DNA of 64,000 bases, from NCBI RefSeq assembly GCF_004346185.1, contig NZ_SMAI01000004.1, positions 62,001-126,000 on the forward strand. The letters are read 5' to 3'. Position 1 is the stretch's first letter. The number at the start of each line of letters is the position of its first letter. This DNA comes from Aquabacter spiritensis. Its GTDB lineage: Bacteria; Pseudomonadota; Alphaproteobacteria; Rhizobiales; Xanthobacteraceae. The notes beneath the pieces are model-generated. The model was not told where the DNA came from. It was given only the letters and a program-made list of their open reading frames with translations, and did not search any database. Of the stretch, positions 22 through 26,371 are shown piece after piece. A program made the position numbers and the translations under genes.

Positions 22-912
22 ATGGATCTGCGGCAACTGCGCTATTTCGTGACGGTCGCCGAGACCGGCAGCATCAGCGCCGCCGCATCGATGCTGCACG
101 TGGCGCAGTCCGCGGTGAGCCGGCAGATGCGTCGCCTGGAAGAGGATGTCGGCGGGGCGCTGTTCAAGCGCAGCATTGCCGGAACGGCGCTGACCGACAG
201 CGGCACGATGTTGCTGGAGCGGGCGCGCTTCATCCTCGGCGAAGTGGAAAGCGCGGCCAACGACGTCTCCGTCTTCAACCGCGGCATGCGGGGCACCGTG
301 CGCATGGCGGCGCCGGGCAGCGTGGGGCGGGCGCTGTATGTGCCCACGGTGCAGCTCTTCCGCGCCCAATATTCGCACGTTCACCTGGAACTGACCGAGA
401 CCAACACGGCCGATGTGCTTCAGCGCCTGTCGGCCGGGATGCTGGACCTCGGCATCGTGTCCGATCCCGGCGCGCACGAGCACCTGTCCTTCATGCCGCT
501 GCTGCGGGAGGAAACGGTGCTGCTGTGTCCGCCCGGCGGCCCGCTCACGGCTGGCGGGCCGGTGCCGGTGGCGGCGCTGCGGGATCTGCCCATCATCATC
601 CCCGCCGGTCTGCGCCGCATCTTTCAGGAGCGCTTCGGCGATCTGCGCCCCGCGCTGCAGATCGACGGTGTCGGCGCGACCGTGCAATTGACCTTGGCCG
701 GTCTGGGCTATGCCGTGCTGCCGCGCTCGATCGTGTCGACGTCGGGGGCTCTGGAGCCGCTGGTCGCGGTGCCGATCGAAGGCTTCGCCATTTCCCGCAT
801 GCTCGCAACGGTCAAGGGACGGCCCGCGAGCCTCGCGGTCCGCGCCTTCCGGGCGGCCATCGAGGCCGAAGTTGCACGCGGCATCGAAGCCGGCCTGTTC
901 TTGGCCGTGTGA
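22..912 (+). CDS. LysR-family transcriptional regulator
   Basis: The 296-residue protein begins MDLRQLRYFVTVAETGS, the usual LysR winged-helix start, with the recognition helix around AQSAVSRQMRRLEED (about residues 29-43). The rest, from about residue 90, is a LysR substrate-binding domain; stretches such as LDLGIVSD and a TVQLTLAGLGYAVLP segment are typical of the Nac/Cbl-like group. Length is normal for the family. It ends close to the convergent VWA gene and its own upstream region lies outside the window, so its target genes cannot be named. The family assignment is secure; the effector is unknown. Confidence 0.93.
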   Translation: MDLRQLRYFVTVAETGSISAAASMLHVAQSAVSRQMRRLEEDVGGALFKRSIAGTALTDSGTMLLERARFILGEVESAANDVSVFNRGMRGTVRMAAPGSVGRALYVPTVQLFRAQYSHVHLELTETNTADVLQRLSAGMLDLGIVSDPGAHEHLSFMPLLREETVLLCPPGGPLTAGGPVPVAALRDLPIIIPAGLRRIFQERFGDLRPALQIDGVGATVQLTLAGLGYAVLPRSIVSTSGALEPLVAVPIEGFAISRMLATVKGRPASLAVRAFRAAIEAEVARGIEAGLFLAV

Positions 913-944
913 GACGCGCGCGCCCAGGCGCCACGGGCAAAAGG

Positions 945-968
945 GTGCCGCCGCCGGGGCGGCGGCAC
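945..968. terminator. GC hairpin between convergent genes
   Basis: GTGCCGCCGCC and GGCGGCGGCAC form an 11-bp perfect stem around a GG centre, just between the stop codons of the LysR gene and the convergent VWA gene. No clear T run follows on either strand, so a bidirectional terminator is likely from position but not proven. Confidence 0.45.
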
Positions 969-970
969 GA

Positions 971-3900
971 TCACTGCACGCCGGGGATCGGCAGGCGCGG
1001 GTTCGCCGGCGGATTTGCCGGGGAACTTGGCGTCGGCTTGGCCGGTCCTTGCGTCCCCACAGCGCCGCCTTTGGTGTCGGTTTGCGGCACGTCGGGCCGA
1101 CGGACGTCAGTGGGCGGGCGGGCCACCGGGCGGCAGGCATCGCCCTGCATCTGGGTGCCGCTCGGACAGACGCACTGCGTCCCGGCCGCGTTCGGCACCG
1201 CCGGCGGACGGCAGGCCAGCGTCGGCCCCTGGTTCGGCTTCACGCATTCCCGTCCGCGCTGGATGGTTCCCGGCGGACACTCGCAGGTGCCCTTCGGGGT
1301 CATCATGCGGGGCGGGGCGCAGGCGGGCGCCTTCACGCATTCCCGTCCGCGCTGGATGGTTCCCGGGGGACACTCGCAGGTGCCCTTGGGCGTCATCAGA
1401 AGCGGCGGGGCGCAGGCGGGGGCCTTCACGCATTCCCGTCCGCGCTGGATGGAGCCCGGCGGACACTCGCAGGTGCCCTTGGGCGTCATCAGCAAAGGCG
1501 GGGCGCAGGCCGGCGCCTTCACGCATTCGCGTCCGCGCTGGATGGTGCCCGGTGGGCATTCGCAGGCGCCGGTCGGGGTCATCATGCGGGGCGGGGCGCA
1601 GGCGGGGGCCTTCACGCATTCCCGTCCGCGCTGGACGGAGCCCGGCGGACACTCGCAGGTGCCCTTGGGCGTCATCAGCAAAGGCGGGGCGCAGGCCGGG
1701 GGCCGCACGCATTCCCGTCCGCGCTGGATCGAGCCCGGCGGGCACTCGCAGGTGCCCTTCGGGGTCATCAGCAAAGGCGGCGAGCAGGCCGGGGGCCGCA
1801 CGCATTCGCGTCCGCGCTGGATCGAGCCGGGCGGGCATTCGCAGGTGCCCATGGGGGTCATGACGAGGGGGGCGGCGCAGGCCGGGGGCCGCACGCATTC
1901 GCGTCCGCGCGGGGTCGAGCCCGGCGGGCATTCGCAGGTGCCGCGGGGGCTCAGGACGAGCGGCGCGGCGCAGGTGGGAACCTTTACGCATTCCCGTCCG
2001 CGCTGGACGCTGCCCGGCGGGCATTCGCAGGTGCCCTTCGGGGTGAGGACGAGCGGGGCCGCGCAGGTCTTGGGCGGCGGCGCGACACAGCCGCGGCCTG
2101 CGATGAAGGCCTGTCCGGCCGGGCAGCCGGCGACCATCGGCGCGGCGGCCGCGGCGAGGAACGGGGCGCAATGGCCCCAGTTTCCGCCGTTCGACGAACT
2201 GTTCGGGTTGATCTGGCCGTGGGCGGTCGGGAAGTCGGTCGCCACCGGGGCGAGGCCGTCGGCGACGAAGCAGTTGGAATAGGTCCCCGGCGGCACCGGC
2301 GATCCCAGCGTCACCGTGAAGGTCACGCTCTGATTGAGCGCGAGCTGGAAGTTCGGCACCGCGCAGGTCGCCGGGGTCGTGCCGCCCCAGGTGCAGGCCA
2401 CCGGCGGCGCGGCGGTGATCGAGGCGATCGGCAGGGGGGTCGCCGTGCCGCTCGCAAAGACGCCGTCTCCGAACAGGACCGGGCCGTCGAAGGCCATGCA
2501 GCGGGCGGTCACGGTCACCTTGAAGCTGCACGGGATGCCGCCTTCGCCGCCGGGCCGGCAGACCTCGTTCAAGGTCGTCTTCTTGACCCAGAGATAGGGC
2601 GCGGAGCAGGGCTCCGGCGGGGTCGCCACATAATCCTGCAGGCAGACCTGTCCGCTGGCCTCGTCGGGTTCGTGCACCGGCCCGGTTTCGGCATTGGCCA
2701 TATTGTTCGGGACATGTCCGACCGTGCCGGTGCCGACGGCGGTGACCTGCGCATAATTCTTCATGCACAGCCACGTGCCGTTGGTGGGGATCGGCGCGGT
2801 CGGGGCGAGCGTGACCTTGAAGCTCAAGGTCGCGGTGCCGCCGGCGGCCAGCGTCGGGATGGTCCACACCACGGGATCGCCGACCACCGCGCTGGTCGGC
2901 GGCACGGAGGCCGGGTTCGAGGTCGCGACCGGGTTGCTGGGGGTGGTGAGCTGAGGCGGCAGGTCGTCCTGCACCACGACATTGGTCAGCGCGCCCGCGG
3001 TGTTGGTCAAGGACAGGGTGACCGTCACCTCGGTCACCGGATTGGTGTGCATGTTGATGTAGGTCGGCGAGATGCTCTTGGTGAGATAGAGGCCGGGGCA
3101 CATTTCGCGGGCGAGGCCGGTGAGGGTGCTGTTCAAGGTCCCGAAGCTGCTGGAGAGGACATTGCCCCCGAGCAGCGCGTTGAGATGGGTGGACAGGCTG
3201 CCGATGCCGATGCCGATCACCGGGACGCCGGCCGCATAGAGCTGGTTGACCACCGGGATGGCTTCGTTGGTCGCGGTGACCGAGTCGGTGTACTGGGTCG
3301 TGCCGGCGGCATCGAGATAGGCGTTCGGCACGCCGTCTGTGATGAAGACCACGACGGTTCCCGGCGGCGGGCCGGGCAGCAAGGTCAAGGCGGCGGCGAG
3401 GCCGGCCTCCCAATTGGTGCCGCCGAACGGCGCATAGCCGGTCGCGATGCTGGAATAGGTCGTCGCCGCCATCGGCAGGACGGTCTGGGCGGAATCCGAG
3501 AAATGGATCAAAGCCGCCTGCGAGCCGTTGGCCCGGAAGAGGTTGGCGGCATTGTTCAGGGCGCCTTGCACGGTGCCCGCGGACGTGCCGACGCTGCCGG
3601 ATTCGTCGACGACGAAGATCACGTTCATGCCGCAGACCTTGGGCACTTCCGGGGGATCCTCGACCACGTCGAAGCCGTCGTCCTTGAGCGTGACGCAGGA
3701 CGTGTTGTCGGCGAGATTGGAATCGACGCCCGAAGCCGGCGCGATCGCCGCCGTCGCGCAATTCTCCCACGGGCCGGGTCCGGCCGCGGTGGCGGTGATG
3801 GTGATCGCGCCGAGCGCGTCGCCCGCCGCCGCCGGGCCCGCGCCGACATAAGTGCAGGTCAGGGTTGCGCCCGCGGCGATGGGCGCCGCGCCGCAGGTCC

Positions 3901-6289
3901 AGTCGGCGCCGCCCGCGACGGCGGTGAAGGTGAGGCCGGCGGGCACCGTGTCGGTGATGGTGATGGCGTTCGCGCCGGTGAAGCCCGGCCCGACATTGGT
4001 CGGGGTGAGGGTATAAGTGAGGGTCGCGGCGCCGGCGGCCGGCGCGGGGCCGGCAGGTGCCGCCGCCTCGATCTTCCCGGTCTTGACGAGCTTGACGTCG
4101 ACTTTGGGATCGGTCTTCACCTCGATGCCGGCGCAGCTGCGATTGTTGTCCAGCGTCGTTTCCCGCAGCCCGGCCGCGGGCGCGACGCCCACCAGGCCGC
4201 AATTCTCGTACTTCCCGGGATCCTTCACGGTGGCCGTGATGGTGAGCGGATCGGCGATCTGGCCGGTGCCGAAGGTGCCGGGGCCGAAGGCGTGGGTGCA
4301 GCTCAGGCTGCCGGTCGAAATCGGCAGCGCGGGCGCGCAGGACCAATTGGTGCCGGCGGCGGCGGCGAAAACCATGCCCGCCGGCACGGCATCGGTCAGG
4401 GTGATGCTGCCGCCGGGGGCGAAGGGGGCGCCGGCATTGGTGACGGCGAGCGTGAAGTCGATTGTCCACAGGCCGGTCGTGGGATCGCGCACCGACTTGC
4501 CGGCGACCTTGTCGAGCTTGAGGTCGATCTCGGTCGCGCCGCACAGACGGGGGTCGGGATTGGTCAGGCAGTCGGGCAAAACCGGCCAGCACAGGCCGTC
4601 GCGGGCGAAGCCCCAGGGGCAGCCGATCTCGACGAAGAAGCCGCAGGTGCCGTTCGGAAGCAGCGGCCAGGGGCAGGCGCTGATCACCACGACCGGCGGC
4701 CAGACGACGGTTTCGACATAGACATAAGGCGGTTCGGCCGGATAGCCCGGGCCGCCATACCAGGCGACGGGCGGCACGCACGGCACCTTGACGACGCGCA
4801 CGCCGCCGAGATGGCCGGCAATGCGCGGATCGTCTTCGCGGCGGTCGAAATCGATGAAATAGCTGGCCTCGGGCGGCGCGTTGAAGCCGCGCACCGGGCC
4901 GGCCGGGCTGCCCTGGAGGCCGGAGATCGCCAGCGGTCCGCCGGGCTCCATCCATTCGCGCAGGCTCGGATCGTTGCGCAGCTGCTGGCCGGTGGCCCAC
5001 AGCGCATATTCGCAGGCGCCGCCGGTCATGACGCCGTATTCGTCATAGCCATAGCCGAGATCGACGCCGCCATTGGCGTTGCGGTAGGGGCCGGCGAAGC
5101 CGACGGCATATTCCTCCGGCAGCTTGATCCAGCGGCTCGGCGTCGCCGGATCGTTGGGGTCTTCGAGCCAATAGCGCAGCACGCGCGGCTCGCCCGGCTG
5201 GGTCAAAGCGAGATAATCGTAGCTGCCGGTCGGGGCGGTGCGCTGGGCGAGGATCATCGCCCCCTTGTGGGAGAACACGATGTCGGAGACCGCATAGGCC
5301 CCGAACTCGACCGAGACGTCGAGTTCCCAGCGCGGATCGCCGGCGAAGCCGCCGTCGCGCGTCAGACCCACCGACCAGATCTGCGGCGGGGTGCCGTCCG
5401 CGCCGTCGCCGACCGAATAGAACAGCCGGCCCTCGTGAAGCGCGAGGCCCCATACGCGGCGCGGGGCCGGCGCATAGCCCCAGCTCGCGGGATCCTCGGA
5501 CTTGAAGCGCGGATCGGTGATCTCGACCCGGAACGCGGGATCGTACGGCACCGGCGGAAGGCCGGCGGCGGTCCGTCCGGCGGTGCCGTGGTCGAAGGCC
5601 GGCCCGGCCTCCCGGCCGTCGCGGATCGCAAGGCGGTGCACCATCCCGGTATGCAGATCGGAGACGAACAATTGCTGGTGCGCGGCGTCGAAGGCGAGAT
5701 TGCCGAGCGCCGCCCCCGGATTGGCGCGCCCGTTCAAGGCCACCTGCGCGAACAGGCTGACCGCGCCGGTGACGCCGTCCACCTTGTAGATGCTGCCCGG
5801 CCCGCCGCGCAGGTCGGTGCCGAACTGGCCCGGCATCCAGAGCGTGCCGGGACCGCCGGTCTTGCGGCGCTCCAGCGTCCGGTCGGGCAGGGGCGCGGCG
5901 AGGTTCAGGCCGAAGGCCGAGGTCGCGGCGAGATAGGCGTTCGGCGCGATGGCGTCGTCGATCGCGACGCCGAACACCTGGCCGACCGTCTTCGCCGGTA
6001 CGGCCAGCTTTTCCGGCGCGTCATAGACCCGCCCGTCCCACACATAGCCGGGCCGCGACGGATCGAAGAGCCGCGCCGAGATGCCGTCGGGATCGATGAA
6101 GGTCAGATCGTCGATCGTCTTGCCCGGCGGGAGAGGCCGGGCTGGATCGGGCGGCTGCACGCCGGCAAAGCCGGTGACCACCAGGTCGCCGGCCGCAAGC
6201 AGCGGCGGCGGGGTCTGGGCGTCTGCGAAACCGGAAAAGAGGGCCAGGAACCAAGCTGTCAGGGCGACGCGGACCAGAGGCCTGCACAC
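971..6289 (-). CDS. Giant secreted VWA/DUF11 protein with Cys repeats
   Basis: This protein of about 1772 residues has a signal peptide (MCRPLVRVALTAWFLALFSG, then ADAQT). An N-terminal region of about 400 residues looks like a beta-propeller. Two DUF11-like domains (about 600-700 and 736-866) have the TDAVPAGM/TDTVPAGL pattern. A von Willebrand A domain follows (about 885-1080) with a MIDAS motif DESGS at D895, then two more DUF11-like segments. Last come nine 31-residue Cys repeats (1409-1687), a degenerate tenth and a Pro-rich tail. The GTG at 6289 is chosen because AGGAG lies seven bases upstream; a GTG at 6310 is also in frame. A role as an extracellular adhesive or surface protein is inferred from domains. 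No LPXTG or autotransporter barrel is visible, so the export route is unclear. Confidence 0.85.
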   Translation of the reverse strand: MCRPLVRVALTAWFLALFSGFADAQTPPPLLAAGDLVVTGFAGVQPPDPARPLPPGKTIDDLTFIDPDGISARLFDPSRPGYVWDGRVYDAPEKLAVPAKTVGQVFGVAIDDAIAPNAYLAATSAFGLNLAAPLPDRTLERRKTGGPGTLWMPGQFGTDLRGGPGSIYKVDGVTGAVSLFAQVALNGRANPGAALGNLAFDAAHQQLFVSDLHTGMVHRLAIRDGREAGPAFDHGTAGRTAAGLPPVPYDPAFRVEITDPRFKSEDPASWGYAPAPRRVWGLALHEGRLFYSVGDGADGTPPQIWSVGLTRDGGFAGDPRWELDVSVEFGAYAVSDIVFSHKGAMILAQRTAPTGSYDYLALTQPGEPRVLRYWLEDPNDPATPSRWIKLPEEYAVGFAGPYRNANGGVDLGYGYDEYGVMTGGACEYALWATGQQLRNDPSLREWMEPGGPLAISGLQGSPAGPVRGFNAPPEASYFIDFDRREDDPRIAGHLGGVRVVKVPCVPPVAWYGGPGYPAEPPYVYVETVVWPPVVVISACPWPLLPNGTCGFFVEIGCPWGFARDGLCWPVLPDCLTNPDPRLCGATEIDLKLDKVAGKSVRDPTTGLWTIDFTLAVTNAGAPFAPGGSITLTDAVPAGMVFAAAAGTNWSCAPALPISTGSLSCTHAFGPGTFGTGQIADPLTITATVKDPGKYENCGLVGVAPAAGLRETTLDNNRSCAGIEVKTDPKVDVKLVKTGKIEAAAPAGPAPAAGAATLTYTLTPTNVGPGFTGANAITITDTVPAGLTFTAVAGGADWTCGAAPIAAGATLTCTYVGAGPAAAGDALGAITITATAAGPGPWENCATAAIAPASGVDSNLADNTSCVTLKDDGFDVVEDPPEVPKVCGMNVIFVVDESGSVGTSAGTVQGALNNAANLFRANGSQAALIHFSDSAQTVLPMAATTYSSIATGYAPFGGTNWEAGLAAALTLLPGPPPGTVVVFITDGVPNAYLDAAGTTQYTDSVTATNEAIPVVNQLYAAGVPVIGIGIGSLSTHLNALLGGNVLSSSFGTLNSTLTGLAREMCPGLYLTKSISPTYINMHTNPVTEVTVTLSLTNTAGALTNVVVQDDLPPQLTTPSNPVATSNPASVPPTSAVVGDPVVWTIPTLAAGGTATLSFKVTLAPTAPIPTNGTWLCMKNYAQVTAVGTGTVGHVPNNMANAETGPVHEPDEASGQVCLQDYVATPPEPCSAPYLWVKKTTLNEVCRPGGEGGIPCSFKVTVTARCMAFDGPVLFGDGVFASGTATPLPIASITAAPPVACTWGGTTPATCAVPNFQLALNQSVTFTVTLGSPVPPGTYSNCFVADGLAPVATDFPTAHGQINPNSSSNGGNWGHCAPFLAAAAAPMVAGCPAGQAFIAGRGCVAPPPKTCAAPLVLTPKGTCECPPGSVQRGRECVKVPTCAAPLVLSPRGTCECPPGSTPRGRECVRPPACAAPLVMTPMGTCECPPGSIQRGRECVRPPACSPPLLMTPKGTCECPPGSIQRGRECVRPPACAPPLLMTPKGTCECPPGSVQRGRECVKAPACAPPRMMTPTGACECPPGTIQRGRECVKAPACAPPLLMTPKGTCECPPGSIQRGRECVKAPACAPPLLMTPKGTCECPPGTIQRGRECVKAPACAPPRMMTPKGTCECPPGTIQRGRECVKPNQGPTLACRPPAVPNAAGTQCVCPSGTQMQGDACRPVARPPTDVRRPDVPQTDTKGGAVGTQGPAKPTPSSPANPPANPRLPIPGVQ
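1229..2065 (-). repeat. Nine 93-bp coding repeats
   Basis: There are nine head-to-tail copies of a 93-bp unit inside the VWA gene. Each encodes 31 residues with Cys at unit positions 1, 13, 15 and 26, for example CAPPLLMTPKGTCECPPGS followed by a RGRECV segment. Copies differ mainly at positions 3-11 and at the SVQ/SIQ/TIQ triplet. The regular four-Cys spacing suggests two disulfides per unit, which is inference. A divergent tenth unit (GTQCVCPSGTQM) follows on the C-terminal side. Confidence 0.95.
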
Positions 6290-6359
6290 TTTCCGTCTCC
6301 TAATGTTCACCCGATTGTGTTCTCGGGCGCAAACATTACACAGGATCGTGAATGTGGCT

Positions 6360-6600
6360 AGGACCGCACTTGCGTCACATGAGTCTTTATATTTTCAGTT
6401 TTCTGAGTATTTGTTTTGAATTCCGCTCTCGGCGAAAGCGTGAATTTCGTTAAAATTGTGAAAGGTGTATTTTTATGATGTCTTTTATGTAGCTTTATTA
6501 CATAAAACTTTACTCATATTTAAAGAAATATTTTTTATTGACGATTTTCTGGAGATAAATTGAACGGTGTAAATATTTATTCGTAATTTTATTGATTTTG
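6360..6600. promoter_or_regulatory. AT-rich island upstream of the VWA gene
   Basis: About 240 bases are strongly A/T-rich, with runs such as AAATATTTTTTATTG and GTAAATATTTATTCG, in a window that is otherwise very GC-rich. No convincing gene lies in it. It sits upstream of the minus-strand VWA gene, so it may hold that gene's promoter and be a target for H-NS/Ros/MucR-like silencers; this role is inference from composition. Confidence 0.4.
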
Positions 6601-7812: not shown

Positions 7813-9063
7813 TCAGCGCACGCCGATCAGGTCGATCTCGATCAGGGTGTCCTTGATCAGGAGGCCCGAGGTTCCGATCGTCGTGCGGGGCGGGGGCACC
7901 GCGAAATATTCTCGCCACACCTCGTCGAAGCCGGCGAAGTCATTGAGGTCGGTCAGGAACACCTGGGCCTTGACGACCTGGTCGAGCGAGGAGCCCGCCG
8001 CCTCGAAGGTGCGCTTCAGGTTTTCCATGATGTAGCGGGTCTGCAGCTTGATGTCGGACCCGTAATAGGGAAAGGCGGGATGCTTGCGCGCTTCCGCCGG
8101 AACGCCGGTCTTGAAGTCGCTGGCGAGCTGGCCGGCGGCGAAGACGAAGGGGCCGACCGCGACGGCCTCGGAATAATTGGCGATGGGCTTGGCATTCGCC
8201 GAGGTGATGACCTCGTGCGTCAGCCCGTCCTTGGGCACATAGGCGATGAGGTCGATCTCGATCAGCGTGTCCTTTATGAGGAGGCCCGACGTGCCCACGG
8301 TCGTGCGCGGCGGGGGCACCTTGAAATAATCCCGCCAGACCTCGTCGAAGGCGGCGAAATCCTTCAGATCGGTGAGGAAGACCTGCGCCTTGACCACCTG
8401 CTCCAGCGAGGATCCGGCGGCGGCGAGGGTGCGCTTCAGGTTTTCCAGGATGTAGCGGGTCTGCAGCTTGATGTCGGAGCCGTAGAAGGGGAAGGCCGGG
8501 TCGCGGCGCGCTTCGGGCGCGACGCCGGTCTTGAAGTCGCTGGCGAGCTGGCCGGCGAGGAAGAGCAGGCCACCGATCTCCACGGCCTCGGAATAATTGG
8601 CGAGGGGCTTCGGGTTTTCCGACGTGACGACGCGATGGACGCCGAGATCCGGCGCATAGCCGACGAGGTCGATCTCGATCAGCGTGTCCCGGATCAGGAG
8701 GCCCGTCGTCCCCACGGTGGTGCGCGGCGGCGGCACCTCGAAATACTCCTTCCACACCTCGTCGAAGCCGGAAAAGTCGTTGAGGTCGGTGAGGAAGACC
8801 TGGGCCTTCACGACATTTTTCAGCGACGATCCCGCCGCCTCGAAGGTGCGCTTCAGGTTTTCCATGATGTAGCGGGTCTGCAGCTTGATGTCGGACCCGT
8901 AATAGGGGAAGGCGGGGTGCTTGCGCGCTTCCGCCGGAACGCCGGTCTTGAAGTCGCTGGCGAGCTGCCCGGCGGGGAACAGGAGGCCGCCGGCCAGGCT
9001 CGCCTCGGAATAATTCGCCAGCGGCTTGGGATTGCTGGACGTGACGCGCTTGATCTCGACCAC
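7813..9063 (-). CDS. Three RidA domains fused in one chain
   Basis: The 416 residues consist of three tandem RidA/YjgF/YER057c domains with a 139-140-residue period. Each carries NYSEA near its start, AGQLASDFKTG, VVKAQVFLTDL and a PPPRTT(V/I)G motif. The Arg of that motif (R114, R253, R393) matches the Arg that binds the carboxylate of 2-aminoacrylate-type substrates in RidA. Domains 1 and 3 share an identical run of 51 residues (31-81 and 310-360). RidA is normally a homotrimer of about 130 residues, so one chain may fold as a pseudo-trimer (inference). A GTG start with GAAGGGG upstream is used. It is the last gene of the livHMGF-binding-protein operon and would act on imine or enamine intermediates of that pathway. 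Confidence 0.93.
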   Translation of the reverse strand: MVEIKRVTSSNPKPLANYSEASLAGGLLFPAGQLASDFKTGVPAEARKHPAFPYYGSDIKLQTRYIMENLKRTFEAAGSSLKNVVKAQVFLTDLNDFSGFDEVWKEYFEVPPPRTTVGTTGLLIRDTLIEIDLVGYAPDLGVHRVVTSENPKPLANYSEAVEIGGLLFLAGQLASDFKTGVAPEARRDPAFPFYGSDIKLQTRYILENLKRTLAAAGSSLEQVVKAQVFLTDLKDFAAFDEVWRDYFKVPPPRTTVGTSGLLIKDTLIEIDLIAYVPKDGLTHEVITSANAKPIANYSEAVAVGPFVFAAGQLASDFKTGVPAEARKHPAFPYYGSDIKLQTRYIMENLKRTFEAAGSSLDQVVKAQVFLTDLNDFAGFDEVWREYFAVPPPRTTIGTSGLLIKDTLIEIDLIGVR

Positions 9064-9126
9064 GGCATTGCCCCTTCTTTCGGCCGGAAAAGCGCCCCGG
9101 CCGAAGCCAGCCGGGGCGGGTCCGGC

Positions 9127-10275
9127 TCAGTTCTGGACCGGGATGTTGCGGGCGTTGGTTTCCTTGCCCGCATCGATCTTCACGACATGGGTCACGAGCA
9201 GCGGATCGCCTTTTTCGTCGAACTTGAAGGCGCCGCGGGTGGAGCCGAATTCGACTTTGGCGAGCGCGTCGCGCACCGCCGCGCGGTCGGCCTTTCCGGC
9301 CTTCTCGATGCCGAGCATGGCGATGGTGATGGCGTCATAGGCTTCCGCCGCATACGCGTCGGGGGTGCGCCCGTAGGCGGCCTTGTACTTGTCGATGAAG
9401 CTCTTGGCGGCGGGGATGTCGGCCACCGTCGCCGGGCTGAAATGGGTGGTGAACATCACGCCGTCGACCGCATTGCCGCCGAGTTCGATGAATTTCGGGG
9501 TCGCGACGCCGTCTGAGGCGAAGCGCGGCAGGGTGAGCCCGATCTGGGCGAACTGCTTGGCGACCAGCGCGCCCTCGGTATAGCGCGACCATTCGATCAT
9601 GGCGTCCGCGCCGCTCGCCTTGATGCGGTTGAGCTGGGCCGTGAAGTCGAGATCGCCGCGCGCATAGCGCTCCTCGGCGACGATCTCGTAGCCGTATTTC
9701 GCGCCGGCCTTCTTGAAGGCCTCGAAGCCGCCGCGACCGAAATCGTCATTCACGTAGAGGAACGCGAACTTCTTGTAGTTGGGGAATTTCTCGTGGATGA
9801 AGTCGACCAGATCCGCGACCAGCTTGGTGTCGGGAACCGGCGAACGGAACACCCATTTGTTGCCCGCGGTGGTGATCTTCTGGGCGGTGCCCGCGACCAC
9901 GATCTGCGGCACTTCCATCTGCCGCGCCACCTGGGAGGCGGCGAGGCTGGCGGGGCTCGAAATCGAGCCGATCATCATCAGCACCTCATCCTTGGAAATG
10001 AGGCGCTTGGCCGAATTCACGGCTTCTTCCGGCTTGCCGGCATCGTCCGCATAGATGATTTCGATCTGCTTGCCGAGAAGGCCGCCGGCGGCGTTCTTCT
10101 CCTTGACCGCGAGATCGACGGCTTCCTTCTCGCTCTGCCCCATGGCGGCGGCATCGCCGGTCATCGGGCCGAACACGCCGATCTTGACCGTGTCGGCCAG
10201 AGCTGCCGTCGCGGCCCCTGACGCCAGGAGCCCCGCGAGAAGAAGCGATCGTAATTTTCTGTTCAATTTCGCCAT
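9127..10275 (-). CDS. Liv-type ABC substrate-binding protein
   Basis: The 382-residue periplasmic binding protein has a signal peptide (MAKLNRKLRSLLLAGLLASG, cleavage near ALAD) and the type I fold pattern DTVKIGVFGPMTGDAAAMGQ. Conserved Liv/Leu-binding segments include SSPASLAASQVA and VYVNDDFG-like FLYVNDDFGRGGFEAF. The ATG at 10275 has GGAG seven bases upstream; a GTG two codons earlier is less likely. It follows livF after 54 bases and precedes the triple-RidA gene by 63 bases. Ligand cannot be told from sequence; the linked oxygenase and RidA genes suggest a nitrogen- or sulfur-containing organic compound rather than a plain amino acid. Confidence 0.93.
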   Translation of the reverse strand: MAKLNRKLRSLLLAGLLASGAATAALADTVKIGVFGPMTGDAAAMGQSEKEAVDLAVKEKNAAGGLLGKQIEIIYADDAGKPEEAVNSAKRLISKDEVLMMIGSISSPASLAASQVARQMEVPQIVVAGTAQKITTAGNKWVFRSPVPDTKLVADLVDFIHEKFPNYKKFAFLYVNDDFGRGGFEAFKKAGAKYGYEIVAEERYARGDLDFTAQLNRIKASGADAMIEWSRYTEGALVAKQFAQIGLTLPRFASDGVATPKFIELGGNAVDGVMFTTHFSPATVADIPAAKSFIDKYKAAYGRTPDAYAAEAYDAITIAMLGIEKAGKADRAAVRDALAKVEFGSTRGAFKFDEKGDPLLVTHVVKIDAGKETNARNIPVQN

Positions 10276-10329
10276 GACCACACTCCGGAAGGTTTGAGTG
10301 GTGAATATCCCCGTTGACGGGTGCTTTTC

Positions 10330-11052
10330 TTATGTGTCTTCGAGCTCTTTCTCGCCGAGATAGCTGGCCCAGACTTTCGGGTGGGTGATCAGCGTCTGGC
10401 TTTCGTCCGTCAAGACGACCTGGCCGGTCTCGAGGACGTAGCCGCGCGCCGACAGGGTCAGGGCGAGTTCGGCATTCTGCTCCACCAGCAGGATCGTCAC
10501 CCCCTCGGCGCGAAAATGCGCGATGGCGCGGATCACCTCTTCGACGATGATCGGGGCGAGGCCCAGCGAGGGTTCGTCCAGCAGAAGCAGCGTCGGCTGC
10601 GCCATCATCGCCCGGCCGAAGGCGAGCATCTGCTGCTCGCCGCCCGACAGCGAGCCGCCCATCTGCTGGCGCCGCTCGCGCAGGCGTGGGAACAGCGCAT
10701 AGACCTCCTCGCGGATCCGCCGCCGGCGCATCGCGGCGCGCGCGGAATAGGCGCCCACTTCCAAATTCTGCTCGACGCTGAGGCGCGGGAAGATGCGCCG
10801 GCCCTCCGGCACGTGGACGATGCCGCGCTCGACGATGGCCTCCGGCTTCAGCCCGTTGAGGGTCTCGCCGAGGAATTCGATGGTCCCGCCAGACGGCGGC
10901 ACGAGGCCCGATATGGCCTTCAGCGTGGTGGATTTTCCCGCGCCGTTGGACCCCACCAGCGCGACGGTCTCCCCGGCCTCGACCGTGAGGTCGATGCCGC
11001 GCAGGGCCGCGACCGGGCCATAGCTGACCGAGAGATTGTTAATGCGCAGCAT
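10330..11052 (-). CDS. livF: Liv-type ABC ATPase, LivF subfamily
   Basis: The 240-residue cytoplasmic ATPase has Walker A GSNGAGKST (about 34-42), signature SLSGGEQQM, Walker B LLLLDEPSLG and the His switch in VEQNAEL (Gln-Asn type usual for LivF). It overlaps the end of livG by 14 bases, showing translational coupling. It would pair with LivG as the heterodimeric motor of the LivHM permease. The symbol names the family, not a proven leucine substrate. Confidence 0.93.
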   Translation of the reverse strand: MLRINNLSVSYGPVAALRGIDLTVEAGETVALVGSNGAGKSTTLKAISGLVPPSGGTIEFLGETLNGLKPEAIVERGIVHVPEGRRIFPRLSVEQNLEVGAYSARAAMRRRRIREEVYALFPRLRERRQQMGGSLSGGEQQMLAFGRAMMAQPTLLLLDEPSLGLAPIIVEEVIRAIAHFRAEGVTILLVEQNAELALTLSARGYVLETGQVVLTDESQTLITHPKVWASYLGEKELEDT

Positions 11053-11854
11053 GCGCGGCCTCCGCCTTGCGCACGGCGGCCGCCGCGGCGACCGCGCCCT
11101 TGCCGAGATAGGCGCCGATCACGGCCCCGTCCGCGCGGATCTCCTTGGGCGTGCCGCGTGCGAGCAGCTTGCCGTAATTGAGGACGGTGATGCGGTCGCA
11201 GGTCGGCATCACGACGTCCATGTGATGCTCGATGAGGATGATGGTGGTGCCGGCCGAGCGGATCCGGAAGATGAAGTCGACGAGATGGCGGCTCTCGCTG
11301 GCATTCAGGCCCGCGGCCGGCTCGTCCAGCAGCAGCAGGCGCGGCTCGGCGACGAAGGCCCGGGCGATCTCCAATAGGCGCTGATGGCCGTAGGGCAGGC
11401 TGCCGGCGGGCTGGTCGGCGAGCGCGGTGAGCCCGACGAACGCCAAGGCGGCGCGCGCTTTCTCCGCGATGTCGGCTTCCTCCCGCTTCTGGAAGCGGGT
11501 GCGCAGCAGAGCGTGGAAGATCTCCGCGCGGGTGGAGGCGTGAAGCCCCACCATCACATTTTCCAGCGCCGTCATCTCGCGAAACAGCTTGAGGTTCTGG
11601 AAGGTGCGGCGGATGCCGGCCGCGGCGCGGCGCTCGGAGGGCAGGCGGGTGATGTCGGCGCCGGCGAACAGGATCGTGCCGGTGGACACCGGCAGATGGC
11701 CCGAAAGAAGGTTCAGCATGGTGGTCTTGCCGGCGCCGTTCGGGCCGATGAGGCCGTGCACCTCGCCCTCCGTCACGTCGAGATCGACGCTGTCGACCGC
11801 CAGGAGGCCGCCGAAGCGGCGGGAGACGCCGCGGGTTTCGAGCAAGGCGGCCAT
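11039..11854 (-). CDS. livG: Liv-type ABC ATPase, LivG subfamily
   Basis: The protein has 271 residues, starting MAALLETRGVSRRFGGLLAV. Walker A is GPNGAGKTT, the signature is AGSLPYGHQ, Walker B is LLLLDEPAAGL and the switch region is IEHHMDV. It carries the extra helical insert of LivG between Walker A and signature (TRAEIFHALLRTRFQKREE). The C terminus has an Ala-rich tail. The start is fixed by a TGATG overlap with the stop of livM. It forms the ABC motor with LivF. Confidence 0.94.
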   Translation of the reverse strand: MAALLETRGVSRRFGGLLAVDSVDLDVTEGEVHGLIGPNGAGKTTMLNLLSGHLPVSTGTILFAGADITRLPSERRAAAGIRRTFQNLKLFREMTALENVMVGLHASTRAEIFHALLRTRFQKREEADIAEKARAALAFVGLTALADQPAGSLPYGHQRLLEIARAFVAEPRLLLLDEPAAGLNASESRHLVDFIFRIRSAGTTIILIEHHMDVVMPTCDRITVLNYGKLLARGTPKEIRADGAVIGAYLGKGAVAAAAAVRKAEAAHAAH

Positions 11855-12837
11855 CAGTTCGCCTCCCGCGGCTTGGAGACCCACGCCCGGGCAGAGGAGA
11901 ACAGGCCGAAGAGCTTGGCCGCAGCCAGAGAGGCGAGACCGACAATGCCGAGATTGCCGGCGGCCATGAGCAGGATGACGGCGAGGCCGAACAGGATCAT
12001 GCGCAGTTCGCCGGAGGAGCGCAGCACTTCCGGCATCAGCACCACGACGAAGGCGCCGACCACCGCGCCGGACAGGCTGCCGAGCCCGCCGATCACCGCC
12101 ATGATCATGATCTCGATGGATTCGTTGAAGGTGAAGTCGCTCGGGCTGAGATAGCGCGAGTGGTAGGCAAACAGCCCCCCGGCGACGCCCGCGGTGAAGG
12201 CCGCGACGAGGAAGCATTTGCTCTTGGACCAAGCGAGCCGGATGCCGCTGGCGCGGGCGGCCTCCTCGTCCTGGCAGATCGCCGAGAGCGCCCGCCCGAA
12301 ACGGGATTTGGAAATCCGGTCCATGGCGACGAAGACGAGGACCAGGATGACGAGGCACACCCAATAGAAGACGTCGTCATCGGCCACCGACACGCCGAAC
12401 AGGGTGGGCTTGGGGATGTCCATGAGGCCGAGGCTGCCGCCCGTGAGCCATTCCTCGTTCAGGATGACGAGGTGGACGATGATGCTGAAGCCGAGGGTGG
12501 CCACCGCGAGGCTGGTGCCCTTCAGCCGGACGATCGGGACGAGCAGCAGGCTCGCGGCGGCGGCGGCGAGGCCGCCCGCCAGCAGCGTGAGGAGGAAGGG
12601 CACGCCGTAATTCGCCGCGAGCGCCCCCGCCACATAGGCGCCGATGCCGTAGAAGGCGCCCTGGCCGAGCGACAGCAGGCCCGCCATGCCGAGAAGAAGC
12701 TGCATGCCGAGGGCGAGGATCGCGGCGATGAGCGCGAGGCTGAAGACGTGCAGCCAATAGGCATTGTGCTCGACCAGCGGCACCGCCACGAGGATCAGGA
12801 GCGCGATGAGGCGGGGCAGAGCGGGGGGCATCTTCAT
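11854..12837 (-). CDS. livM: Liv-type ABC permease, LivM subfamily
   Basis: This 327-residue inner-membrane protein has multiple hydrophobic helices from residue 5 on. It contains the LivM hallmarks GMAGLLSLGQGAFYGIGAYV and, later, AVIGGLGSLSGAVVGA. The start MKMPPALPRLIALLILV at 12837 is preferred because the upstream in-frame residues are Trp/Ser-rich and read like antisense of livH. It starts 10 bases after livH and overlaps livG by one base. Confidence 0.93.
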   Translation of the reverse strand: MKMPPALPRLIALLILVAVPLVEHNAYWLHVFSLALIAAILALGMQLLLGMAGLLSLGQGAFYGIGAYVAGALAANYGVPFLLTLLAGGLAAAAASLLLVPIVRLKGTSLAVATLGFSIIVHLVILNEEWLTGGSLGLMDIPKPTLFGVSVADDDVFYWVCLVILVLVFVAMDRISKSRFGRALSAICQDEEAARASGIRLAWSKSKCFLVAAFTAGVAGGLFAYHSRYLSPSDFTFNESIEIMIMAVIGGLGSLSGAVVGAFVVVLMPEVLRSSGELRMILFGLAVILLMAAGNLGIVGLASLAAAKLFGLFSSARAWVSKPREAN

Positions 12838-12847
12838 CGATCGCGCC

Positions 12848-13732
12848 TCAGACCTGCCGGCCGGCGCGGCCGAACAGGCCCATCGGCGCCACCAGCAGGA
12901 TGAGGATGAGCACGACCATGCCCACGGCATCCTTGTAGGAGGTCGAGATGAACATGGCGGAGAAGGTCTCGATCACGCCGAACAGGAGCCCGCCCACCAT
13001 GGCGCCCGGCACGCTGCCGAGCCCGCCCAGAACCGCCGCGACGAAGGCCTTGATCCCGGTGATGAAGCCCATGTTGAAGGAGGCGAAGAAGAGCGAGCCG
13101 AGCAGCACCCCGGCCGCCCCCGCCATCATGCCGGAGACGGCGAAGGTGTTCACGGTCGCCCGTTCCACGCTGATCCCCATCAGGCGCGCGGCATCCGGAT
13201 CCTGCGCCGCCGCCTGCATGGCGATGCCGGCGCGGCTGTAGCGGAAGAACACCGCGAGCGCGGCCATGATGAGCACGCTGAGCACGACGATGGTCGCGAG
13301 CTGCGGGGAGACGGTGAAGCCGGAAATGACGAGGCCCCGCGTCTCGAAAAGCGCGGGATAAGCGAGCGGTTCCGAGCCCCAGACGAGACGCGCCACGTTC
13401 TGCAGGACGATGGACACGCCGATCGTCGCGATGACCACGTTGATCAGGGGAACGCGCCGGGCGCGCAGCGGGCGATAGACGCCGAGCTCCACCGCGACCG
13501 CCATGAGGCCGCCGCCGAACGTGCCGCCGATCAGCGCCAGGAGCGGCGCGTTTCCGGCCCACACGCCGGACGAGAAGCCGGTCATCGCCCCGACCATCAT
13601 GACTTCGCCCTGGGCGAAATGAAGGATGTCGGTCGCCCGCACGATCATCGAAATGCCAAGTGCAATAAGGCTATAAATACAACCTATTGCGAGGCCGCCG
13701 AGTAGAGTCTGGAGGAATTGATCATAAATCAT
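12848..13732 (-). CDS. livH: Liv-type ABC permease, LivH subfamily
   Basis: The 294-residue membrane protein begins MIYDQFLQTLLGGLAIGCIY. LivH features include ILHFAQGEVMMVGAM near residue 50 and VLGGLGSVPGAMVGG near residue 220. It is the first gene of the minus-strand operon livH-livM-livG-livF-binding protein-triple RidA. A perfect TGCATGCGCATGCA palindrome lies 78 bases upstream of the ATG, so control by the nearby LacI-family regulator is likely (inference). Confidence 0.93.
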   Translation of the reverse strand: MIYDQFLQTLLGGLAIGCIYSLIALGISMIVRATDILHFAQGEVMMVGAMTGFSSGVWAGNAPLLALIGGTFGGGLMAVAVELGVYRPLRARRVPLINVVIATIGVSIVLQNVARLVWGSEPLAYPALFETRGLVISGFTVSPQLATIVVLSVLIMAALAVFFRYSRAGIAMQAAAQDPDAARLMGISVERATVNTFAVSGMMAGAAGVLLGSLFFASFNMGFITGIKAFVAAVLGGLGSVPGAMVGGLLFGVIETFSAMFISTSYKDAVGMVVLILILLVAPMGLFGRAGRQV

Positions 13733-13809
13733 CCGGACCTGAATCTTTCTTTTCGAAAGTGGCGCAGTTGGAAAGCGTAGCCCCCTTTGACCGAGCGGCA
13801 AGATCAAAT

Positions 13810-14119: not shown

Positions 14120-15457
14120 ATGAAGAAAATCCACCTGGCCTTCGACATGTCCTGGACCAATGTGGAGACCCAGTGGCGTCAGCCGGGCTCCTGGGTCGGG
14201 CCCGACTACCCGTCCGTGGGCCTGTTCGAGGATATGGCGCGGCTCGCCGAGCGCGGCGGGCTGGACATGATCTTCTTCGGCGACGGCACCGGCATTCCCG
14301 ACACCTGGGAGGGCGGCATCGAGGATGCCGTGCGCTACGGCGTGGCCTGGCCCCGGCTCGATATGAGCCCCTGGATCACCCTGATGTCGCGGGTCACCAG
14401 CCATGTCGGCTTCGGGCTGACCTATGCCTCCACCTTCATGCATCCCTTTTATACCGCGCGCCTGCTCAATTCCCTCGACCACGTCACCAATGGGCGGATG
14501 GCGTTCAACGTGGTCACGTCCCAGCGCCGCTCGGATTATGCCAATTACGGCTATGACGAACTCGTCGACCACAATTCCCGCTACGACCGGCTGGAGGAGT
14601 TCGTCGATGTCTGCCGGGCGCTGTGGGACAGCCTCGATCCCGACGCCTTCGTCTGGGACCGCGCGACCGGCCAGGTGGCTGACCCCGCCAAGGTCCGGCC
14701 GATCAATCATCACGGCCAGTTCTTCAAGGTGAAGGGGCCGCTCAGCGTTCTGCCCTCGCCGCAGCGCCACCCGGTGGTGATCCAGGCGGGCGGCTCGCCG
14801 CGCGGCACCCGCGCCGCCGCCCACGTCGCCGATCACGTGTTCGGCCTGACCAAGTCCGTGCCGCTCATGCAGCAGCAGCGCAGCGACCTCGACGCCGCCT
14901 TGCGCGCCGAGGGCCGCGATCCGGAGGACGTGGGAATCCTTTGGTCGATGCGCGCAATCGTGGCCGACACCGAGGCCGAGGCGCAGGCGCTGCGCGAGCG
15001 GCTGATCGACGGCGTGTCGCGCGAGGCGGTCGGCGTGTGGCTGTCGCACAATACCGGCTTCGACATGTCGACCCTGCCGCAGCGCTTCACGCTGTCCGAG
15101 CTCCAGGCGCGGATCACCGCCGCGAACGCCTCGCCCGTGGGCTTCGTCGCTTTGCTGGCCAAGGAATATGGCCAGGACACCGAAATGAGCCTCGACGACT
15201 TCTTCGAGCACGGCCTGCGCCACGCCACCGGCTACGCGATCACCATGGCGGGAACGGCCAAGCAGGTGGCGGATCGGATGGAGGAAATGTTCGAGGGCAC
15301 GGGCAGCCGCGGCGGCTTCATGATTTCGATCTCGCAGGCGAGCCCGCGCGCCGTACCCTACAACATCGTCACCCAGCTCGTCCCCGAACTGCAGCGCCGC
15401 GGCCGGTACCGCACCGCCTATGAGGGCCGCACGCTGAAGGAGAATCTCGCGAGCTGA
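14120..15457 (+). CDS. LLM-class flavin monooxygenase, NtaA/SnaA/DszA type
   Basis: The 445-residue protein begins MKKIHLAFDMSWTNVETQWR. It shows NtaA/SnaA/SoxA-family hallmarks: GPDYPSVGLFEDMARLAERG, MIFFGDGTG, TYASTFMHPFYTARLLNSLD, GRMAFNVVTSQ and a phosphate-binding PVVIQAGGSPRG. Such enzymes use FMNH2 from a partner reductase to oxidise compounds such as nitrilotriacetate, dibenzothiophene sulfone or alkyl sulfonates. The partner is probably the convergent flavin reductase 24 bases downstream. It is divergent from livH, with a candidate operator 94 bases upstream. The substrate is unknown; family and cofactor are well supported. Confidence 0.93.
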   Translation: MKKIHLAFDMSWTNVETQWRQPGSWVGPDYPSVGLFEDMARLAERGGLDMIFFGDGTGIPDTWEGGIEDAVRYGVAWPRLDMSPWITLMSRVTSHVGFGLTYASTFMHPFYTARLLNSLDHVTNGRMAFNVVTSQRRSDYANYGYDELVDHNSRYDRLEEFVDVCRALWDSLDPDAFVWDRATGQVADPAKVRPINHHGQFFKVKGPLSVLPSPQRHPVVIQAGGSPRGTRAAAHVADHVFGLTKSVPLMQQQRSDLDAALRAEGRDPEDVGILWSMRAIVADTEAEAQALRERLIDGVSREAVGVWLSHNTGFDMSTLPQRFTLSELQARITAANASPVGFVALLAKEYGQDTEMSLDDFFEHGLRHATGYAITMAGTAKQVADRMEEMFEGTGSRGGFMISISQASPRAVPYNIVTQLVPELQRRGRYRTAYEGRTLKENLAS

Positions 15458-15481: not shown

Positions 15482-15973
15482 CTATCCGGCGGCCGGAAGG
15501 GCCTCGAAGCGGCCGTTGAAATAGAGCAGCGGCGGCGTCTTGATGTCCCGCATCGACAGGTGCTGGACCTCGCCGATGAACACCGTGTGGGAATGCACTT
15601 CCATGGCGGCGATCACCGTGCAGTCGAAGCTCGCGAGCGCGCTCGGCAGTGCCGGCGCGCCGGTGGCGAGACGGTCCCAGGCCTGATCCGCGAACCGCGC
15701 CTCGCGCAGATGCGATGCGGAGAAGCGGCGGGCCGTCTCCATGTCTTCGTGGCTCAGCACGTTGACGCAGAAGATGCCGGTGCGGTGGATCACGCCGTGG
15801 CTGTGGGCGCTGCGGTTGACGCAGACCAGAAGCGTGGCATTGGGCTCGGCGGCCACCGAACTGACAGCGGTCGCGACGAAGCCGTGGGGGCGGCCATCCT
15901 CGATCGTGGTGATGATGGTGACGCCCGCCGCCAGTCGGCGCATGCCCTGCTTGTATGCCTCGCTGTCGACCAT
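15482..15973 (-). CDS. Flavin reductase of a two-component monooxygenase
   Basis: The 163-residue protein has the flavin reductase split-barrel pattern: RRLAAGVTIITTIEDG, GFVATAVSSVAAEP, LLVCVNRSAHSH, FCVNVLSHEDMETA and a C-terminal PPLLYFNGRF. This is the NtaB/HpaC/RutF family, which reduces FMN or FAD with NAD(P)H and hands it to an oxygenase. The ATG at 15973 (MVDSEAYKQG) has AAAGG upstream. It faces the LLM monooxygenase tail to tail and is divergent from the LacI-family gene across candidate operator 3, which lies about 105 bases upstream. Confidence 0.92.
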   Translation of the reverse strand: MVDSEAYKQGMRRLAAGVTIITTIEDGRPHGFVATAVSSVAAEPNATLLVCVNRSAHSHGVIHRTGIFCVNVLSHEDMETARRFSASHLREARFADQAWDRLATGAPALPSALASFDCTVIAAMEVHSHTVFIGEVQHLSMRDIKTPPLLYFNGRFEALPAAG

Positions 15974-16077
15974 GGCACGCACCTTTCCGCAGACCGATTC
16001 CGCGCTTTACCGCCGCTTTGGCGCGCAGGACGGTGCAGAACACTAAAGTCACCTTTGAATTTTGCACAAGCTCATTA

Positions 16078-16091
16078 TGCATGCGTATGCA
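16078..16091. promoter_or_regulatory. Candidate LacI-family operator 3 (reductase/regulator)
   Basis: TGCATGCGTATGCA differs from the perfect palindrome of site 1 at one base. It lies between the divergent flavin reductase and LacI-family genes. A CATAAT hexamer (16074-16079, minus strand) overlaps its edge, and TTGCAC on the plus strand lies 18 bases before a TATGCA within it, so a bound protein would block promoters both ways. Confidence 0.65.
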
Positions 16092-16184
16092 AAGCCGGAT
16101 GAAGCTATTTTGTGCACACGGCTTTCCTTCGCCAGCTTTGTATGGCACCAACCCTGGGGGTCATGCACCGATGGGTGGTCCGGC

Positions 16185-17225
16185 ATGAAGGGGACGAAGG
16201 CGGGGCGGCGCGGTCTGGGTCGCGTCACGGCCGAGGAAGTTGCGCGGCGGCTCGGCGTTTCGCAATCCACCATTTCCCGCGCCTTTTCGCCGAGCGCGAG
16301 CATTTCCGACGAGATGCGCACCCGCGTCGCCAATGCGGCGATGGAACTCGGCTACCAGCCCAACATCATCGCCCGCAGCCTCATCACCCGGCGGACCGGG
16401 ATCGTCGCCATCGTCATCGGCAATCTGGTCGACCCGTTCTACACGACCCTTCTGGATATCCTCACCGACCGGCTGCAGGCCGGCGGCAAGCAGACCCTCC
16501 TGTTTTCCTCGTCGCGGGCCGGCGGCCTCGATGCGATCATGCCGACGCTGCTTCAGTATCAGGTGGACGGAATCGTCATCACCTCCGCCGCGGTGACCTC
16601 CGACATGGCGCGGATCTGCGCCAAGCGCGAGACCCCCGTGGTGCTGCTGAACCGCAACGTGCCGGGCCTCGATATCAGCGCCGTGTGCTGCGACAACGTC
16701 CAGGGCGGACGCCAGATGGCCCGGCATCTCGTCGGGCTCGGGCATAAGCGCTTCGCCTTCGTCGTCGGCCAGCCGGACGCCAGCACCAGCCTGGAGCGCC
16801 AGCAGGGCTTCGTCTCGGAACTGGCGCAGGCAGGCATCTCGTCCTGCGTCATCGAGCAGGCGGGGGAATATAGCTACGAGGCCGGATACGAGGCGGCGCT
16901 GCGTCTCGCCGCCGGCGCCAGCCGCCCCGAAGCGGTGTTCTTCGCCAGCGACATCATGGCGATCGGCGGCATGGATGCCTTCCGCAGCCGCGGCCTCTCG
17001 GTCCCCGGCGATATCTCCGTGGTGGGCTTCAACGACGTCCCCCTGGCCGCCTGGCCGACCTATGCCCTGACCACCGTCCGCCACCCCTGGGAGCAGATGG
17101 CGGCGCGGGTGGTGGACCTGCTGGGCGTCGACGCCGCCGCGGCGCCCGTCCGCAAAGCGGTGACGGAACTCATTCCCGGCGATCTGATCCTGCGTGGCTC
17201 CACCGGCCCGCGCCGGGACCAATAA
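16185..17225 (+). CDS. LacI-family transcriptional regulator
   Basis: The 346-residue protein has an N-terminal LacI helix-turn-helix (VTAEEVARRLGVSQSTISRA, then F) and a hinge segment NAAMELGYQPNIIARSL. A periplasmic-binding-like effector domain starts at TGIVAIVIGNLVDPFY and ends with LTTVRHPWEQMAARVV. Start MKGTKAGRRGLGRV at 16185 places the HTH at the normal distance; in-frame codons upstream to 16062 include operator 3 and are not family-like. It probably binds the three TGCATGCGCATGCA-like sites and controls itself, the reductase, the monooxygenase and the liv/RidA operon (inference). Confidence 0.93.
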   Translation: MKGTKAGRRGLGRVTAEEVARRLGVSQSTISRAFSPSASISDEMRTRVANAAMELGYQPNIIARSLITRRTGIVAIVIGNLVDPFYTTLLDILTDRLQAGGKQTLLFSSSRAGGLDAIMPTLLQYQVDGIVITSAAVTSDMARICAKRETPVVLLNRNVPGLDISAVCCDNVQGGRQMARHLVGLGHKRFAFVVGQPDASTSLERQQGFVSELAQAGISSCVIEQAGEYSYEAGYEAALRLAAGASRPEAVFFASDIMAIGGMDAFRSRGLSVPGDISVVGFNDVPLAAWPTYALTTVRHPWEQMAARVVDLLGVDAAAAPVRKAVTELIPGDLILRGSTGPRRDQ

Positions 17226-21544: not shown

Positions 21545-21909
21545 GACAAGCCCGCCCCACACTGCTTCAAAGCCAAAAGAATTAGCAGGTTCGTAGGTCA
21601 GCGCCACTTAATTGCTCAACATCGGCCGCTTGTGGCGGATGCGATTATAAAACATGCCTCTCTGTGATCTTTTCAGCACATTCGGCCAAAACTTTTCTGC
21701 ACCGGGGGCAGACATTTTCATTGCTTCGGATCTTAAAGTGCGAGCGGGGTAAGCAGCGATTCTGTGTGTGCGGTAACATGGGAGAGCCTTGGGGGCGGAA
21801 CCCCGGGACGCCGAGGATCATTCTCCCGACAAGGCATCGGATGCCGTCGTCGGCCCGCCGCAGGCGATGCCGCCTTGGGACAGGGTGAGCGCAGCGAAGG
21901 AGGCACGTC
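21545..21909. other. Intergenic region without a gene
   Basis: This stretch separates the divergent autotransporter and yqjG genes. It holds upstream sequences for both, with a moderately AT-rich part near 21630-21740 (TTATAAAACATGCCTC and similar) where promoters are likely. I see no gene, RNA or clear operator. Confidence 0.5.
21897..21903 (+). promoter_or_regulatory. Strong Shine-Dalgarno fixing a TTG start
   Basis: AAGGAGG lies six bases before the TTG at 21910, deciding that codon as the start of the glutathionyl-hydroquinone reductase gene, whose family N terminus (MGQLVEG) begins exactly there. Confidence 0.8.
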
Positions 21910-24119: not shown

Positions 24120-24133
24120 CGCCCCTGCGCGTA

Positions 24134-24155: not shown

Positions 24156-24192
24156 AAAATCACCAAAAACACATAATCCAGAGGGTTTAGAC

Positions 24193-25359: not shown

Positions 25360-25377
25360 CGCCGGCTTGCGCGCGGG

Positions 25378-26370: not shown

Positions 26371-26371
26371 G

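Follow-up and report, generated by a model that had tools for sequence, protein, structure and literature searches.

A single-chain triple RidA protein encoded beside Liv-type transporter genes in Aquabacter spiritensis

A gene in Aquabacter spiritensis encodes three RidA domains fused in one chain, an arrangement known as 3x-RidA. The architecture is known and the setting is informative, with uptake genes beside the gene and the three copies alike. Structure prediction indicates that the chain very probably folds as a built-in pseudo-trimer. The reading preferred here is that of a 3x-RidA pseudo-trimer with near-equivalent sites, acting as a deaminase in a Rut-like pathway for an imported nitrogen compound; its probability is put at roughly 0.6. 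The window referred to throughout is the whole stretch of DNA analysed, 64,000 nucleotides of contig NZ_SMAI01000004.1, and its main features are listed in Table 1.

Table 1. Features of the window in and around the 3x-RidA gene
Feature	Position	Strand	Basis
3x-RidA gene, 416 aa	7813..9063	(-)	ORF, PF01042 scan
RidA domain 3, residues 282-416; Arg393, Glu409, Lys365	7816..8220	(-)	domain scan, site table
RidA domain 2, residues 143-276; Arg253, Glu269, Lys225	8236..8637	(-)	domain scan, site table
RidA domain 1, residues 4-137; Arg114, Glu130, Lys86	8653..9054	(-)	domain scan, site table
Long loop preceding first large helix of domain 1, residues 41-57	8893..8943	(-)	alignment, low pLDDT blocks
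Counterparts of this loop in domains 2, 3	8476-8526, 8056-8106	(-)	
RBS-like AAGAAGGGG, just 5' of GTG start	9071..9079	(-)	by eye
Liv/HAAT-type periplasmic substrate-binding protein (Peripla_BP_6)	9127..10281	(-)	family scans, solved relatives
LivF-type ATPase	10330..11052	(-)	family scans
LivG-type ATPase, start not fixed	11039..11863	(-)	GPNGAGKT in translation; 66% to L032 frame
LivM-type permease, start not fixed	11854..12840	(-)	family scans
LivH-type permease, start not fixed	12848..13807	(-)	family scans
NtaA/DmoA-family FMN-dependent monooxygenase (luciferase-like), divergent	14120..15457	(+)	family scans, solved relatives
Flavin reductase; best model RutF, 128.7 bits, under cut-off 254.75	15482..15982	(-)	family scans
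LacI-family regulator	16062..17225	(+)	family scans

Gene and protein features

The frame opens with GTG at 9063 and runs to 7813 without an internal stop as a single chain. Three stretches of it are matched by the Pfam model PF01042, with 264.1 bits over the whole chain and 98.3, 88.0 and 82.2 bits for the individual domains (cut-off 27.3), which places the protein in the Rid superfamily. The best NCBIfam model is TIGR00004 (Rid detoxifying hydrolase subfamily), with 248.8 bits summed over the three domains against a cut-off of 106.25. The catalytic Arg and Glu of the RidA subfamily occur in each domain, and with three such domains fused in one chain the protein falls under the definition of 3x-RidA. 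The RutC equivalog cut-off was missed (158 bits, summed over three domains, against 169.1). Matches to the Cas_Csx9 and SfbI models lay under their own cut-offs and were taken as chance.

In the DNA the repeat appears as three 300-nt copies at spacings of 420 and 417 nt; with one copy taken as reference, the other two match it at 84% and 89% identity. Identity of the whole domains is 78% (1-2), 83% (1-3) and 80% (2-3). A collapsed repeat or other assembly error, the objection raised in the first-pass annotation, was ruled out because the copies differ and all 24 related loci of other assemblies encode the triple in one open frame; the gene is taken to be genuine.

Besides the Lys, Arg and Glu of Table 1, the three domains carry Tyr18/157/297, presumably the equivalent of Tyr17, and Thr116/255/395. 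The first-pass annotation had described three RidA domains in a single chain, each with the Arg of the PPPRT motif, and both statements are borne out by the profile matches and the site table. It had also remarked that domain 2 differs at several positions. This is true, but it is a weak sign of divergence: none of the seven tabulated site and core positions differs among the three domains, and functional divergence of domain 2 is unsupported because the tabulated site residues are all the same. For Arabidopsis RidA, passages of PMC4960622 describe Arg165 as binding pyruvate, Lys136 and Glu182 as an inter-subunit salt bridge and Thr167 as lying at the site; the site residues given there for TdcF are Arg105, Cys107 and Glu120. 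On our own reading of the motifs, the Arg, Thr, Lys and Glu of the window protein would be the equivalents of these residues.

Predicted structure

The whole chain was modelled with AlphaFold2 from 25 aligned sequences, giving a mean pLDDT of 86.3 and a pTM of 0.89; for three unconnected domain beads a much lower pTM would be expected in our judgement. The best seven Foldseek matches in the PDB are chorismatases, aligned over 383-390 columns and ranked ahead of single RidAs (TM 0.61-0.63 by target and 0.49-0.51 by query, rmsd 4.6-5.7 Å). VIA-align also ranked a chorismatase first (5a3k_C; Z 25.1, rmsd 3.0 Å, 284 residues, model residues 25-415), followed by single RidAs at about Z 17, and matched the FIST protein FBXO22 (8ua6_C) over 260 residues at Z 15.8. 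Chorismatase identity to the window protein is 14-18%. Cyanuric acid hydrolase was not among the matches listed by Foldseek and VIA-align against the PDB. The 56 PDB sequences matched include no solved 3x-RidA: all are chains of 115-165 residues, none with more than one matched stretch. The first-pass annotation had proposed that one chain forms a built-in trimer and had suggested predicting its full-chain structure; the prediction supports the proposal through the pTM and the rank of the chorismatases.

Occurrence of related proteins

A pattern-based scan of a genome collection with a stated 84,980 species returned the 24 homologous triples (designated below by L numbers), so the search for other proteins with three RidA domains that had been suggested with the first description was positive. 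Their hosts are Bradyrhizobium, Pseudolabrys, Beijerinckia, a Hyphomicrobiales bin, Defluviicoccus, a Rhizobium bin, Betaproteobacteria, Candidatus Rokubacteria and Acidimicrobiia. Among 385 genomes sampled from the class, copies at E <= 1e-60 were found in the source genome and one other, and a close copy was absent from four same-genus genomes searched (E no better than 2e-10). It is a rare gene with a patchy distribution, and the patchiness suggests horizontal transfer. The locus on a contig titled Thermoflexus hugenholtzii (L052) is nearly identical to two betaproteobacterial loci, and this bin may therefore be mislabelled.

Arg, the interface Lys and Trp are present in all three domains of all 25 proteins, the window protein included; Glu is kept in 25/25, 25/25 and 22/25 proteins for domains 1, 2 and 3, respectively. 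In L051-L053, which are 46-47% identical to the window protein, domain 3 has Gln for Glu and Phe for Tyr, and domain 2 has Ile for Thr. A distant set of ten stretches was also compiled, from which L064 was dropped as a single RidA domain; the other nine (L055-L063) hold triple-like frames. L055-L061, whose host family is that of the source genome, give three domain matches that are 17-32% alike within the protein (L060 with a masked run), and L062 and L063, which belong to different families within the order, give weaker, partial matches. In a MAFFT alignment inspected by eye, Arg is absent from all three domains in all nine frames. Judged by these residues, the sites have diverged in L051-L053 and in the distant triples.

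Likeness among the domains

Core identity is 92% between window domains 1 and 3 and drops to 78-85% when these domains are compared with their positional counterparts in L031, L032 and L049. By dS, the window domains stand 0.39-0.54 from one another; comparison with the domains at the same position in these three loci gives 0.68-1.87, where the higher values approach saturation. A run of 45 codons in domains 1 and 3 contains two silent differences and no amino-acid difference. From these comparisons domains 1 and 3 look homogenised, and we infer that exchange between domains, not repeated triplication, made the window domains alike. The expectation of the first-pass annotation that fusion would allow the three sites to diverge is thus not borne out in this protein, whose sites are intact and whose domains 1 and 3 have such similar cores.

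The same tendency is seen in L038 (dS 0.17 between domains 1 and 2) and L033 (within-protein dS 0.49-0.56). Repeated independent triplication could also make domains alike. In L038, the 25 columns at the N-terminal end of domain 3 are closer to Defluviicoccus domain 3 (81%) than to domains 1 and 2 of L038 itself (68 and 72%), but the core of domain 3 is closer to the other domains of L038 (94-95%) than to Defluviicoccus domain 3 (75%). These figures make triplication less likely for L038.

Homogenisation is not general. The Bradyrhizobium proteins L031 and L049 have a within-protein dS of 0.73-1.73, with 0.53-1.18 between their same-position domains; by these values they are without homogenisation, which is counted against the preferred reading. 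In the pairs L040/L043 and L036/L054 the domains are closer between species than within the protein, and over the first ~27 columns likeness by position exceeds within-protein likeness (four groups averaged). Of the 75 domains, 60 have their nearest match at the same position of another protein, 4 at a different position of another protein, and 11 within their own protein. These 11 are made up of every domain of the window protein, L033 and L038, plus two from L034. The statement that domains always cluster by protein is ruled out by this count. In a tree of the 75 domains, built from few columns and with 24 open forks, no position stands as one group (domain 1, 12 changes; domain 2, 13; domain 3, 10) and the domains of a lineage mostly stand together. 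All but one of the domains in Rokubacteria, Acidimicrobiia and Defluviicoccus have their nearest match at the same position in a different species, so exchange would be occasional and not continuous.

Genome neighbourhood

3x-RidA is the final gene of a Liv-type uptake operon with the minus-strand order LivH-LivM-LivG-LivF-binding protein-3x-RidA. Solved relatives of the binding protein gave no readable substrate. The best solved relative of the divergent monooxygenase is dibenzothiophene desulfurisation enzyme A (250 bits), along with dimethyl-sulfide and alkane monooxygenases; solved RutA scored 42.8 bits. The gene does not have a rutA equivalog beside it, the monooxygenase reaching 62.7 against the RutA cut-off of 498.3, and no rutB homologue was found among the window neighbours scanned. 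A CN_hydrolase (nitrilase) at 22932-24119 lies in the window and is not adjacent to 3x-RidA.

Elsewhere in the window, a second possible uptake cluster at 21910-27571 (+) encodes a GST-like protein, a nitrilase-like CN_hydrolase and a Liv-type binding protein and includes two frames at 25408-27571. An autotransporter of 1017 aa with a clear beta-barrel domain (PF03797) is encoded at 18554-21607 (-). A 1779-aa frame at 971-6310 (-) shows, by eye, stretches resembling DUF11 and von Willebrand A together with nine Cys-rich repeats, nearly identical and each ~31 residues long; it is overlapped on the opposite strand by a long open frame at 710-6361.

An ABC-transporter gene directly abuts 3x-RidA on the same strand in 10 of the 24 related loci, or 11 of 25 with the window (raw count). 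The transporter is Liv-type in L032, L042, L044, L045, L046, L048 and L050, and BMP/PnrA-type in L031, L034 and L049, as named from a scan of L031 and by BLAST for the other two. For L045 the longest neighbour frame is an overlapping one, its start being unsettled; L048 has only the binding protein of the transporter on its contig, and the transporters of L045, L046 and L048 are distant from that of the window (24-41%). No transporter abuts the gene in the remaining 14 loci; several of the 24 are short. Liv-type genes occur only at a distance of 3.6-6.2 kb in L033, L038 and L041, and TctC-type binding proteins lie ~1.2 kb off in L051-L053, where a 2-hydroxyacid dehydrogenase adjoins. The transporter set used had no match in the five Defluviicoccus loci or in L040, L043 and L047. 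The neighbours in Defluviicoccus are cell-wall genes and RNase E (L036 by scan, the other four by clustering).

Both L032 and L050 repeat the LivHMGF-binding protein-RidA order and its divergent monooxygenase. L032 carries the set seen in the window, including monooxygenase, flavin reductase, LacI regulator and transporter; for L050 the flavin reductase and regulator were unmatched in a stretch ending 1.6 kb past the monooxygenase. The monooxygenase (74-77%) was found in three of the 24 loci, the third being L034, where it stands (77%) beside the BMP/PnrA-type transporter. The LacI regulator was also found in three (L031, L032, L049). The 14 loci lacking an abutting transporter, the low count of the monooxygenase and the Defluviicoccus neighbours are counted against the preferred reading, as are the solved relatives of the monooxygenase with the low RutA score, the lack of a rutB hit among the scanned neighbours and the RutC score under its cut-off.

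Proposed role and alternatives

RutC is described in passages of PMC8113886 as a RidA-fold 3-aminoacrylate deaminase of the rut operon, in which RutA/F opens the uracil ring. By analogy with RutC, 3x-RidA would act on the enamine or imine formed from an oxidised import. The chain would fold with three inter-domain clefts, each like a normal RidA active site, in which Arg would take the carboxylate and Glu would sit by the reacting group; the three sites would be near-equivalent, kept alike by occasional sequence exchange between the domain cores. The Liv-type transporter would import a nitrogen compound, the monooxygenase, supplied by the flavin reductase, would oxidise it, and the enamine or imine so formed would be hydrolysed by 3x-RidA, yielding ammonia and a carbonyl compound, a step parallel to that of RutC after RutA/F and RutB in uracil breakdown. 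The analysis itself shows the domain composition, the conserved sites, the predicted fold of the whole chain, the neighbourhood and how alike the domains are; deaminase activity, a pathway shared by the neighbours and the class of the substrate are all inferred, and the pathway role with transporter and monooxygenase is offered tentatively, at somewhat below even odds.

A more general function in damage control is unlikely, though it has points in its favour. The protein would then remove 2-aminoacrylate-like imines from PLP enzymes degrading imported amino acids, with no specific link to the monooxygenase. The domains are of the archetypal type by their TIGR00004 score, and the adjoining transporters are Liv- or BMP-type, with the monooxygenase in a minority of loci. 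On the other hand, the genome holds PF01042 at five other places, and the synteny of L032 points to a dedicated pathway.

The loop preceding the first large helix of domain 1 is 11-12 residues longer than in five solved RidA chains aligned with it, which raises a reading compatible with the preferred one: two pseudo-trimers may pair back to back (six domains) as in the 2-aminomuconate deaminase AmnE, with a larger enamine from ring cleavage as substrate. AmnE can be aligned with domain 1 (131 against 130 residues). As stated in passages of PMC6742747, TdcF, YEO7 and p14.5 lack the Ala49-Pro59 segment of AmnE (beta3-alpha1 loop), which the hexamer requires. A short query of the loop, however, matched AmnE only past the loop (26-66 of 66, E 0.0048, rank 38 of 52), so likeness loop to loop is not established, and the loop has low pLDDT in the AlphaFold2 model. 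Such pairing is judged improbable. That the protein is not an enzyme and serves in binding, regulation or as a chaperone, activities of the kind reported in the family (background passages of PMC4433059), is very improbable, given that all three sites retain the residues tabulated for deamination.

Extending the preferred reading to evolution, the transporter-linked branch might perform the Rut-like deaminase step, with gene-conversion-like exchange keeping its sites alike in some lineages, other branches having lost one site or every Arg; this extension is doubtful. If it is true, linked RidA trimers would serve as a natural experiment on whether active sites become free to diverge once subunits are concatenated. 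The triples, with sites all kept, one eroded, or Arg lost in all three, allow a direct test of linked-subunit evolution. The tight gene neighbourhood suggests where the substrate of 3x-RidA may be sought.

Comparison with known systems

The novelty implied for a fused trimer in the first-pass annotation does not hold, because both the name 3x-RidA and the reading as presumably covalently linked trimer units were published by Niehaus et al. in 2015, with EF_0115 as an example (PMC4433059, in part). Those proteins and the window protein alike have three RidA domains in tandem, EF_0115 being likened by its description. The excerpted account of 3x-RidA in PMC4433059 does not touch on linkage to transporters, homogenised domains or lost sites in triples. 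In full-text literature the term was found in PMC4433059 alone, with similar phrases also in a DUF71-family paper; the literature searched yielded no 3x-RidA described as purified and nothing relevant on RidA with nitrilotriacetate monooxygenase and an ABC transporter.

RutC resembles the window protein in its RidA fold, in being encoded with an FMN monooxygenase and a flavin reductase and in keeping the essential Arg (PMC8113886, in part). It differs in being a single-domain protein of its own subfamily, and the monooxygenase of the window is of the NtaA/DmoA type. AmnE shares the extra residues in the loop preceding the first large helix, but is a single-domain homohexamer (PMC6742747, in part). 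Chorismatase (4bps, 5a3k, 5ag3), the cyanuric acid hydrolase AtzD and the FIST domain of FBXO22 are, like the window protein, single chains of three repeats, and are related to or possibly derived from a YjgF trimer. In the excerpted text of a preprint (PMC11185555) the single-chain chorismatase fold is one that the pseudo-threefold FIST domain also has and that may stem from YjgF trimers, and for AtzD Peat et al. argue for concatenation (PMC3758960, in part). The site of AtzD is placed in the central barrel in the same part of PMC3758960, whereas RidA-type pockets lie between subunits.
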